Origin: Membranipora membranacea
Taxonomy: Eukaryota; Bryozoa; Gymnolaemata; Cheilostomatida; Membraniporidae
Assembly: GCA_914767715.1 (NCBI GenBank)
Contig: OU612070.1
Location: 5,163,501-5,227,500 of the forward strand
DNA: 64,000 bases
Reading direction: 5' to 3'
The notes under the pieces were generated by a model. That model did no database searches, was not told the DNA's origin, and was given only the letters and a program-made list of their open reading frames with translations. The position numbers and the translations under genes were made by a program. Shown piece by piece: positions 20,712 through 60,699 of this stretch. Positions within the stretch are counted from its first letter, which is position 1, and each line of letters starts with the position of its first letter.

Positions 20712-23700
20712 TCAGACTTGATAAAGTCTTAGAGGAGGTCTTATACTTGACTGCACTGTGTTTTCTCGGCTCACATTGCGAGGGAGTCCTCTGCCTGGAG
20801 TAGGTACAGCATAGTCATAATCAGGTTTAGGTATTGTCCGTGATACAGGACCAGGGCCAAAGTCCAGAGAGTACCTGGGCTTGCCTGTTAAGCTTCCATC
20901 CATATACCCACCAATGCCTCTCCTGCCGAATGGTGGTGGTATCATCGGGCTGCCATAACCAGGAGGCATAACTCTGGGGTCGCTCCTCATCAGTTTGGAT
21001 TTATCTGCCTTCGCATTCTTTGACGTTATGCAGGCGCACACAGAGATGATGATAGCGACAACGAACAGAACAATCAGGATAACTCCAAGTAACACATAGA
21101 GCCACACTCCACAAACGGATCCGGCTATAATAAAACAAAATATTAATACGTAAGTTATCTTCTACAACAACTTATCTTATCTCGTGGTAACTATTAGGAT
21201 TATGCTCCCTTTTCTTAAAAGCACACAACTACCCATAACTTTAACAATTCGCTGTGACTGGACAATGCAGAGGTTGAAACAAGTAGGATTTGCATGCATC
21301 ATAATATTAAAGTTTTAAATGAAGGTGGTCTAGTCGAGATACATGGCATATAAATTAAGAGATCTCTTTAAGGAAGAGAGTGTCTTTGTACACAGGCTGA
21401 CCCCTGGAAAGTCTGGAACTGCAAGTAGCAGAATTATCTTGGTTTGGTAACAGGACTGAGATGTATTATATAACAGTGCAAAGTGGTCGGCTACTTAGGT
21501 CTGGATGGAGAAGTTATTTGGTAATTCACTCAAAGTTTCAGTGCATGCATTGATAATTCAATAGAGTAGAGTAGTATTGCACCTCAAACTTGTTGCCTGC
21601 CAAAAGGCATAAACTTATGTTGGGAAACTGAAGTCAGCTACGTAAATAAATCACAGGGAACTGAAAAGGTTGTGCCTGAAATCACTAGGTGGAAATGAAG
21701 AGTACAAATACTGGCTGGTCAAGTTTTTTCTTTATGCGGCGTGTGCATGGAAGGAAAATGATTGCACAGTGCTAGTTGAGAATTAGGCATTAATCGATTA
21801 CGATTCTAACAATTGCTAGTAAAATGCAACAAAAAACCAACGTATAACTTGATTTTGCCACAACAGATTTTGCATGCAGAACTACAAAGCATTTAAGCCC
21901 ATTAGTTAGTCTTTAGAAGGTAGCCACTGCAAAGTTAAGTGGCTTCTCTCCAAGATTTGAGCAACAATTAGCGTGTATGTATGCAAGGGACATTTGAGTG
22001 AGCGCTAATACTGCAGTAGCAAAGCTTAAGCTGCGATGTTTGAGCCTGCTAGAGTGTCATGGAAGAGAAAAGAAGGCATGTGCAGGATTAGAAGCAATGT
22101 AGCGTCAGCAAACTTGAACTTACAAGTGAATGGTTTGAGGGAGTCTAAACAAAAGCAAAGATATAATAATAATAGTGTATGATATAAGAACAAGAATTAT
22201 AACACTACTGGAAGTTGTTACAACAAGAAGGGACTGCTCACAGTGGAACAATGGTCCAGCAAGGCTATCAATGGTTTTCTGTGACAGGTGATTGGGAGTA
22301 GAAAAACCTGCTGGTTATTTTCCAGTTTTTCCCGAACGTGTTCACTCTTGGAAATTTGGAATTCACCATCAGAATTCTCAAACTCGAAGAGAATGTTGCC
22401 CTAATTTAGGTTGAGGATTATCATACAATCATAGCACAGGAACTAGACAAACCTGAGGGACGGACACTACAACAGATTAAACATCTATATTCTCTAAATT
22501 ATTCATACCTGGGCATGTACATACAGGAGTTGTCTCCCCCTGAGGTTGACACATTTGTCCGAGACCACAGTACACTCCATCACAAGATATAGCACATATT
22601 CTACCGGGTTCATCTGTATAGGGGGAGATATCAACTGGATATCCTGTAATTATATTAGATGTATGATAAATGTGCTCAGTATAGTCTGCATACAACTGTG
22701 AATGAGGTGCCTAGAAACATGATATTTTCAATCCGTACTCCCAAATGACACGCATTGACTCCTGCTTGATACAAAAAAACCCGTCCATTATTTTCAGAAT
22801 TTTAGAGCAGTGCACTTCACTGATGGAATGCTTGGTAATGAGGCAGGGATGATGTGGTGCTAACATAGATTACCATGTACTGTGTGGTAAACTTACCAGA
22901 ATTACAGGTACAGTTGTAGGAGCCATCTGTGTTCTCACATTGGGAGTTGTCGCTGCAGCTGTTGAGAATAGCCTCGTCACATTCGTCTATGTCAAAGGCC
23001 AATGGAGCATCCACAACAACTAAAATAGAGCCGTTAGGAGGTGGAGGTCAAGTTCATATCTTGATTACAAATGGCCCCATGACTGAATTCCTGGTATTTA
23101 CAAGGTGAAACTTCATTATGGTATGGTATTGTGGTAGGTTACCTAAACGAGTGAAGTATTTGTAGAAGGAAAAGCTTGTACCTTCTTTGTTGGAGAAAAT
23201 ATCGGAATTCATCGCTAGCTATCATTTTTCATCTCCTTACATTACATCAACTCCTTTCTCTACTAGCTAAACTTTTTGCTAGCTTACATAAGGTCATCTT
23301 CAATCTAGCCTCACTAAACTCTAGCTACTAATATTCACACCTTGTATCGTGTGAAGGGTATACAAGTGTCAGCAATGTAGCTTTTTTATATATGTTGCGT
23401 ATCCCACCAACATGTTCTATTTTTAAATATATGCGTGCATTCACACAATGCTCAAAGTTTATCAAACCTCCTTAGATTTCAAGTTTTATATAACCGTAAT
23501 GATGCATCTATGTTGTAAGATACTCTGACAATTTTTGTTGTTGGCAGTTTTCCGGTTTTATTCAGACACAATATACATGACCCTAGCAGGAAGCTGCCAG
23601 GCAAAATCCAAAATGTGACTACTCCATTCAAAATGCCATTAGCAACTGATCTTTATAAAAAATGCTACCAGCTTATAAAATTTACACAGTACAACTTTAC

Positions 23701-59800: not shown

Positions 59801-60699
59801 AGGTGTGGCACATGATCCTCTGCAATGACTAAGAGATGTGATAATGAATGTTGTGACTTAGTGTCATATCAGTTACCATATTGAATATATGCCACCCGGA
59901 ACTTGGTAAGGGCAGCACTGAGGTCATGTTTCTGTTGTTCTAGATTGGCAGGCAATAATATTACATAGGCCTACCAAGATTTAACTCTGGGTATCGGTTA
60001 TTTTCGATTTAATGATCCTGCGCTGGGTAACTATAAATTAAATTTTGTATTAATTTTCGTTTAATGCTGTAGAGTATAACTAAAATCATCATAACTCTTG
60101 ACCAATTTAAGGGCATTTTATATATTTTTTTCTCAAAAGTATCATCAATGTCATGTCAAAGTTATCACATTCTCTTTCTTTTTCAATAAATCATCCAGCC
60201 CTTTCATGAAATTTTGAATTTTGAATTATGGTACTTTGTTTGCTGTATGGTTGGTTTGTTGGTTGTTTGAAATAAGTCTTTGATTGGGACCTCTTTGCAT
60301 ATTTCTATGTCTAAGCCTTAGCATGCCTCTTCAGGGCATGATCTAAATGTGGTCTAAAGGTTTAAGGTTTTAAATTATTATCGTGTTTTAAAAATAAAGA
60401 TGATATCATCTTTAAATTGTTTTGAAAAATAAATTGCTTTGGTCAATACTTTGATCAACAAGCTCCAGTTCCAACTCAGCAATCAATCTGCAAACATCAC
60501 TCAGCACAGGTGGACAAAGTAAATGATAAATACAGCAATTATTTATCTACATAAACTTCACCGTGATCAAGTTACTTAACAAACCAGTTTGAAAAACCAG
60601 AATGTTGCTCTTATCTGAAACCGCATTAAGAAATTAAGACTTACCCGCTGTACATATCGATATAGAAGCCACCAAGGTAAACAGTAGAAACCTGTGCAT
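47860..60699 (-). CDS. Copy A: membrane mucin with ADAM/ADAMTS-type metalloprotease head (18 exons)
   Basis: Exons (5'->3'): 60699-60645, 59264-59053, 58661-58581, 58247-58097, 56727-56462, 55983-55906, 55623-55478, 55071-54922, 54581-54417, 54255-54114, 53945-53829, 53315-53264, 52753-52600, 51635-50792, 49962-49761, 49533-49411, 48860-48723, 48026-47860. All junctions are GT-AG, phases match, and the total is 3,243 nt (1,080 aa). Signal peptide about 1-18; prodomain about 19-204, ending in the furin site RVKR; reprolysin domain about 205-435 with HELGHNLGAKHD at 375-386 and Met-turn [14 protein letters not shown]-like Cys-rich domain about 435-539; three PLAC-like modules about 540-670; Thr/Pro mucin tract about 670-835; SEA domain about 835-945; EGF and follistatin-like EGF about 945-1026; transmembrane helix about 1035-1057; short basic tail. 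The zinc histidines, glutamate and Asp are intact, so activity is expected. Expected location is the cell surface; the substrate is unknown. The mucin tract is short compared with copy B. Confidence 0.88.
50950..51415 (-). repeat. Thr/Pro mucin tract of copy A
   Basis: Short version of the mucin tract, about 155 residues of [12 protein letters not shown] repeats, coding within exon 14 of copy A. The length differences between copies (about 155, 500 and 1,500 residues) fit replication slippage in the repeat. Confidence 0.88.
51678..51815 (+). mobile_element. tRNA-derived SINE, family 1, intron 13 of copy A
   Basis: Plus-strand head GGTTTAGTTGGTTAGGGCGC, B box GGCTCGAATCC, then a body ending near GAGAGCAACATGGCTCC, matching the element at 38885-39065 in order and spacing. 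Confidence 0.75.

Follow-up and report, generated by a model that had tools for sequence, protein, structure and literature searches.

Does one gene of the bryozoan Membranipora membranacea join a zinc protease to the stem of a membrane mucin? The question is raised by a 64,000-nucleotide stretch of contig C6 (the window, C6:5163501-5227500; the assembly has 339 Mb and 18 contigs), in which we predict two such genes, A and B. Gene A (minus strand, 47,860-60,699) has 18 exons and encodes 1,080 amino acids. Gene B (minus strand, 20,712-38,243) also has 18 exons and encodes 1,519 amino acids, and each gene has a single, terminal stop. Both predicted proteins have, in order, a leader, a prodomain that ends in RVKR, a reprolysin domain, an ADAMTS_CR_2 domain, three cysteine modules, a tract of threonine and proline (the Thr/Pro tract), a SEA-like domain, a pair of EGF domains, and a membrane helix. 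We consider it fairly probable that A and B are type I membrane proteins that display an ADAMTS-type zinc protease on a stem like that of a membrane mucin. An earlier note on this DNA had proposed a protease that is tethered by a glycosylated stalk and releasable at a SEA domain. The observation behind it, a protease and a mucin-type stem in one gene, is confirmed in both gene models; the interpretation as a whole is partly supported.

We compared the open reading frames of the window pairwise, which gave colinear conserved blocks in two copies, and then read the flanks of these blocks. Exons were chained with a small splice and codon model, and the models were then fixed by hand. (The initial automatic chains numbered 24 exons in A and 31 in B. 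Exons that only one copy possessed were pruned, and several boundaries were set by eye, among them those of the first and last exons and the end of the mucin exon.) GT-AG was imposed when choosing boundaries, for all 17 introns in each copy; phases were not imposed. The exon phase is the same in A and B at 18 of 18 exons, and the exon length is equal at 11 of 18. The earlier note had described two 18-exon copies that splice cleanly, and our rebuilt models stop at exactly the coordinates that it gave, with one stop each. Both are predicted gene models, read from sequence alone. Pfam searches with single open frames of the window gave nothing useful, and Rfam had no match in the window.

The head of each protein (exons 1-12) has both features of an M12B (reprolysin) protease, the motif HExxHxxGxxH and a Met-turn (NIMAP, NVMAP). 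Within the zinc site, HELGHNLGAxHD, the zinc ligands and the catalytic glutamate are kept in A and in B. Matches to Pfam's Reprolysin (E = 1.4e-10 for A and 2.4e-10 for B) and ADAMTS_CR_2 (6.9e-13 and 1.1e-13) are above the curated cut-offs, and PF17771, for the ADAMTS-type domain after the protease, exceeds its cut-off in A, in B, and in P2 and P3, two related loci elsewhere in the genome. In the PDB, the closest solved structures to A are the catalytic domain of ADAM8 (6e-9) and the catalytic and next domain of ADAMTS1 (2.6e-7). RVKR closes a prodomain that lacks cysteine in both copies. (Leader peptides were assigned from hydropathy alone.) The prodomain, reprolysin domain, and ADAMTS-like cysteine-rich domain of the earlier note are thus borne out. 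No match at E ≤ 1 was found in A or B for any prodomain family of Pfam, for the ADAM disintegrin and ADAM cysteine-rich domains, or, outside the Thr/Pro tract, for TSP1, and there is no CSxTCG-like motif.

The stem carries three cysteine modules per protein, with the pattern C-x7/8-C-x6/8-CC-x2-C. The Thr/Pro tract has 166 amino acids in A (127 Thr and 27 Pro; 93.4% Thr, Ser, or Pro) and 513 in B (386 Thr and 83 Pro; 95.5%). Modules 2-3, the tract, and the start of the SEA-like domain share a single open exon (exon 14) and are joined there without any splice. The first EGF of the pair matches Pfam's EGF_CA (2.2e-9 in A, 1.8e-9 in B), and exon 18 encodes a predicted membrane helix (hydropathy 3.1 in A and 3.5 in B). 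A and B therefore have what defines a membrane mucin, a long Thr/Ser/Pro tract on a predicted type I membrane protein. The composition, the EGF_CA matches, and the hydropathy agree with the tract, EGF pair, and transmembrane helix of the earlier note. It had also called the cysteine modules PLAC-like. The likeness of the three C-C-CC-C modules stands, and library support for it is missing: A's three modules have no Pfam or NCBIfam match at E ≤ 10. (An AlphaFold model of two cysteine modules was too poor, with a predicted local distance difference test score of 46, and was not used.)

In the anchored members, the domain between the tract and the EGF pair is likely, judging from a profile comparison, to be SEA-like and divergent. 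We built a profile from A, B, and region C (a partial third copy downstream of B). Against the SEA domain of MUC1, this profile scores 25.8 (HH-suite probability 29%), and the best of 200 column shuffles scores 17.9. Its best scores elsewhere are 14.8 (22 other pieces of A and B) and 16.5 (54 other open reading frames of the window) (the 55th is the exon itself and was set aside). The GSV or GSI of the profile aligns onto the cleavage site of MUC1.

A serious possibility, although one that we do not favour, is that the gene and its join are as we describe but that this juxtamembrane domain is a family-specific domain with four cysteines, distinct from SEA and not self-cutting. The protease would then be permanently tethered or shed by another enzyme. 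Several results count in favour of this and against a SEA domain. Pfam's SEA has no match in A, B, or C (the MUC1 control gave 52.8 bits), NCBIfam gave no SEA match either, and the three-sequence profile finds no SEA or other match in the PDB at E ≤ 10. Single sequences fail to exceed the best shuffle (A 17.1, B 13.0, C 14.7). With P2 and P3 added, the five-sequence profile scores 11.7 against MUC1, below the best of 100 shuffles (15.7). Four cysteines are invariant across A, B, and C, one of them immediately before the GS site; in exon 15 of P2 and P3 the cysteines are kept and the GS motif is absent. What speaks for SEA nonetheless is the score of the three-sequence profile against its shuffles and against other pieces, the GS motif at the MUC1 cleavage site, and the GSIIV of B and C. 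The SEA label of the earlier note is weak: it gets no help from Pfam or the PDB, and its match to MUC1 is lost once P2 and P3 join the profile.

If the domain is SEA-like, does it cleave itself? The rule in the excerpt of PMC9478142 is that self-cleaving SEA domains have GSxxV, where x is V or I. B and C conform (GSIIV). A has GSVIA and does not, which tells against release of A. Self-cleavage is predicted from the motif for B and not for A, and the claim that the protease is releasable at SEA fits B, fails for A, and inherits the weakness of the SEA assignment.

Could the link between protease and stem be an artefact of prediction? It is improbable, in our judgement, that two neighbouring genes, one for a secreted protease (exons 1-12) and one for a membrane mucin (exons 13-18 or 14-18), have been falsely merged. 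We have several pieces of evidence that bear on this, some of which go against a single gene. The joins of exons 12/13 and 13/14 depend on introns that are themselves predictions. We scanned introns for alternative first exons (ATG, at least 15 amino acids, a GT donor of a common type, and the correct phase) and found two candidates in B's intron 12 (2,076 bp), three in A's intron 13 (one of them, at 52,363-52,430, strongly hydrophobic), and two in B's intron 13. Hexamers like poly(A) signals lie in intron 12 of both copies (one in A and four in B). Also, region C has stem exons without protease exons. On the other hand, the same scan found no candidate in A's intron 12 (510 bp), and none of the candidates are similar between A and B (by eye, among those listed). 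The joins in A and B are compatible in phase. Reading through past exon 12 gave no ending common to A and B.

Selection has acted on both halves: between A and B, the ratio of nonsynonymous to synonymous substitution rates (dN/dS) is 0.20 in the 530 codons of the head (exons 1-12) and 0.26 in the 123 codons of the modules, with values for single exons of up to 0.5-0.6. Pooled, exons 15-18 are 32% identical and saturated for synonymous change, so this is a fast-evolving part. As an aside, the synonymous rate (dS) of exon 5 (56462-56727 in A and 34304-34569 in B) is 0.15, and it is 0.51 to saturated in other exons. Because this is far below the other exons, it suggests that exon 5 was converted between gene A and gene B.

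A further argument for the join comes from elsewhere in the genome. Exons 8-10 of A, used as a query, gave 13 matches, including six places outside the window, and we retrieved the surroundings of five. Two of the five (P2 and P3) repeat the join from protease to mucin. In P3 (C6, near 26.96 Mb), a chain runs from the prodomain to ADAMTS_CR_2 and from exon 12 into an in-phase single exon with modules, a TTTTTP tract, and a SEA-like start (recognised by eye). P3 is 45% identical to A (580 aligned residues) and 46% identical to B (588 aligned residues). P2 (C1, near 26.99 Mb) has the same order, with one module, a TTVP-type tract, a longer exon 12, and a SEA-like start that matches A's (E = 0.003). 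Pfam finds reprolysin and ADAMTS_CR_2 in both, with unsupported exons omitted. The join is unlikely to be accidental because two distant loci repeat the protease, module or modules, tract, and SEA-like start in order. (P1 has the protease and modules, and no tract was found there; in P4 and P5, the matches are confined to the part from the prodomain to ADAMTS_CR_2.)

A caveat is that the P2 and P3 chains are automatic, with 20 exons each, and that some of these exons are unsupported, in P2 chiefly near exons 9-10 and in P3 chiefly past the tract. Another is that no convincing EGF domain or membrane helix was found downstream of P2 (within 17 kb) or P3 (within 10 kb). (The scan flagged three hydrophobic frames in P2 and two in P3, along with one loose EGF pattern in P3.) In both, the frame of exon 15 reaches a stop, unless it is spliced on. 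P2 and P3 are perhaps soluble, or perhaps their ends escaped detection. The tethered protease of the earlier note agrees with the helices of A and B, and tethering is possibly not family-wide.

We also considered an assembly error behind the adjacency of protease and mucin and rejected it, as diverged copies at three places carry the adjacency.

Three other observations concern relatives. Beside P3 (C6:26947000-26976999) is a second, closely similar mucin exon with traces of protease, and P3 seems from this to have been duplicated. Contigs C1-C4 and C6-C9 have 26 reprolysin matches, 20 of them in open reading frames of at least 370 amino acids; these form a large, apparently intronless group apart from the family of A and B. 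The 26 do not include the window's own genes, presumably since those match exon by exon only. No relative was found in the prokaryote genome contigs that we scanned.

Region C is most likely, from its exons and their decay, a partial and partly decaying duplicate of the 3' half of B. Its exons 15, 16, and 17 match B's lengths (208, 123, and 135 nucleotides), given one possible choice of donor for 15 and 16, and a membrane exon just beyond the window (C6:5162160-5162540) is 76% identical to B's. The interval between B and C yielded no protease exon. The second and third units of C have lost the AG at the position of B's exon-13 acceptor; in units 1 and 2, the tract continues into exon-18 DNA in a different frame; and the last unit has a frame change within the tract, near 3,060-3,200. 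For pieces of C against B, dN/dS is 0.22-0.49, so some constraint acted. As predicted exons go, C is a case of stem exons that can exist apart from the head. Sequence at and beyond B's last exon (17993-20870) recurs between the units of C (10103-15016), and there is an exact 314-bp tandem pair at 13567-14196. It seems from these repeats that the array of C expanded as B's 3' end and flank were duplicated in tandem.

That the mucin stem is the functional part and the head a non-catalytic binding module has a precedent, in that 8 of 21 human ADAMs lack a working zinc site (according to the excerpt of PMC4448532), but it is quite improbable, given the intact zinc ligands, catalytic glutamate, and Met-turn of A and B, the HELGH kept in P2 and P3, and a dN/dS of 0.17 over exons 5-9.

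How would a protease displayed on a mucin-like stem work? On the way through the secretory pathway, a furin-type enzyme would cut off the prodomain. The Thr/Pro tract would be densely O-glycosylated and stiff, and the stalk would hold the active protease tens of nanometres or more from the cell surface. Its targets could lie in the coat around it, in mucus, or on cells next to it. The cysteine modules might contribute binding to substrate or matrix. The SEA-like domain of B probably cleaves itself at G-SIIV, which would allow the head to be pulled away or shed. Self-cleavage is improbable in A, which would remain tethered. The distant relatives in which no anchor was detected are possibly soluble versions of the same head and stalk. 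What tells against this account is that we infer activity, glycosylation, furin processing, and release from knowledge of related families. A bolder suggestion, which we think unlikely, is a mucin-protease family of one animal lineage in three states (permanently tethered in A, tethered yet self-releasing in B, and soluble in P2 and P3), with parts of the C array as alternative stalk cassettes for B by splicing.

To our knowledge, ADAMTS7 and ADAMTS12 have no SEA domain, EGF pair, or membrane helix; membrane mucins and IMPG2 have no protease head; and TMPRSS11D has no long Thr/Pro tract. (IMPG2 does have an EGF pair, and TMPRSS11D is a membrane-held serine protease of type II topology with a SEA domain in its stem. 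Its non-catalytic chain matches MUC1's SEA weakly, with E = 0.025.) According to the excerpt of PMC4448532, all ADAMTS proteases have a thrombospondin type 1 repeat and are secreted, several have PLAC, and ADAMTS7 and 12 have a mucin domain. A and B resemble ADAMTS7 and ADAMTS12 as that excerpt describes them, with an ADAMTS-type protease, a furin site, and a mucin/proteoglycan domain (those two also carry PLAC, for which A's modules have no library match), but those are secreted and have thrombospondin repeats, whereas A and B have no TSP1 match and a predicted membrane helix. ADAMs, in the excerpt of PMC1867822, are membrane-bound, with disintegrin, cysteine-rich, and EGF domains. A and B are likewise predicted to be membrane-bound M12B proteases with EGF ahead of the helix, but have ADAMTS_CR_2 instead of the disintegrin and cysteine-rich domains, plus a long Thr/Pro tract. 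With membrane mucins and IMPG2 they share the tract (glycosylated there, presumably so in A and B) and the predicted membrane helix. The SEA domain of membrane mucins and IMPG2, which is cleaved at GSxxV (excerpt of PMC9478142), has a likely SEA-like counterpart in A and B. As predicted proteins, A and B fit neither the ADAMTS nor the ADAM definition.

Among the open-licence papers listed, we found no description of this combination of protease and mucin stem. The one co-mention there of "reprolysin" and "SEA domain" is, by its title, a tumour mutation survey, and the excerpts of PMC12960093 and PMC10381214 describe no such combination. The earlier note knew of no family that joins all these parts. 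A mucin domain and PLAC on an ADAMTS protease are already known (ADAMTS7 and 12), and it is the mucin-type membrane anchoring that is unusual. A membrane anchor on an ADAMTS-type, mucin-bearing head looks new against the open-licence papers that we covered, and this novelty is provisional.

The coordinates of the features are in Table 1. A few other features of the window are as follows. A stray piece like exon 2 (prodomain) lies upstream of A (61795-61908, minus strand) and is a relic or an alternative prodomain exon. B's intron 1 has 14 copies of a 13-base satellite (37601-37785), and its intron 12 has a repeat with TTGCGACGTT (30218-30347). Between A and B is an open reading frame of 316 amino acids (43278-44228, plus strand) with no Pfam match at E ≤ 10; its stretch GYQDGSFAEARFDSPHSI is reminiscent of NHL repeats.

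Table 1. Predicted exons and domains of genes A and B and of region C (window positions)
Feature	Strand	Position	Content
Gene A, exons 1-9	-	60645-60699, 59053-59264, 58581-58661, 58097-58247, 56462-56727, 55906-55983, 55478-55623, 54922-55071, 54417-54581	
Gene A, exons 10-18	-	54114-54255, 53829-53945, 53264-53315, 52600-52753, 50792-51635, 49761-49962, 49411-49533, 48723-48860, 47860-48026	
Gene B, exons 1-9	-	38192-38243, 35944-36155, 35410-35490, 34897-35047, 34304-34569, 33843-33920, 33465-33610, 32840-32989, 32057-32221	
Gene B, exons 10-18	-	31619-31760, 31026-31136, 30481-30532, 28221-28404, 25760-27650, 24874-25081, 22897-23019, 22509-22643, 20712-21124	
A, exons 1-5	-	56462-60699	Hydrophobic leader, prodomain without cysteine, RVKR at residues 201-204, start of catalytic domain
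A, exons 5-9	-	54417-56727	Reprolysin catalytic domain; HELGHNLGAKHD spans the exon 8/9 junction
A, exons 10-12	-	53264-54255	ADAMTS_CR_2 domain (Pfam 6.9e-13)
A, exons 13-14	-	50792-52753	Three cysteine modules, Thr/Pro tract (166 amino acids), first half of SEA-like domain
A, exon 15	-	49761-49962	Second half of SEA-like domain, GSVIA at residue 898
A, exons 16-18	-	47860-49533	Calcium-binding EGF, second EGF-like domain, predicted membrane helix, short basic tail
B, exons 1-12	-	30481-38243	Leader, prodomain with RVKR at residues 200-203, reprolysin and ADAMTS_CR_2
B, exons 13-14	-	25760-28404	Three cysteine modules, Thr/Pro tract (513 amino acids), SEA-like start
B, exon 15	-	24874-25081	Second half of SEA-like domain, GSIIV at residue 1252
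B, exons 16-18	-	20712-23019	EGF pair, predicted membrane helix, long tail
Region C (partial third copy)	-	1-16102	Four exon-13/exon-14 pairs, then exons 15 (1257-1464), 16 (599-721), and 17 (64-198)

If A and B are indeed proteases on membrane-mucin-like stems, they would link the matrix-cutting ADAMTS proteases to the mucin coat of cells. A protease held at a fixed height within this coat, and in one copy releasable through its own stem, would offer a direct means of tailoring the coat, releasing signals, or meeting microbes at the surface. And with related heads on tracts of very different lengths, the role of stalk length would be open to testing.

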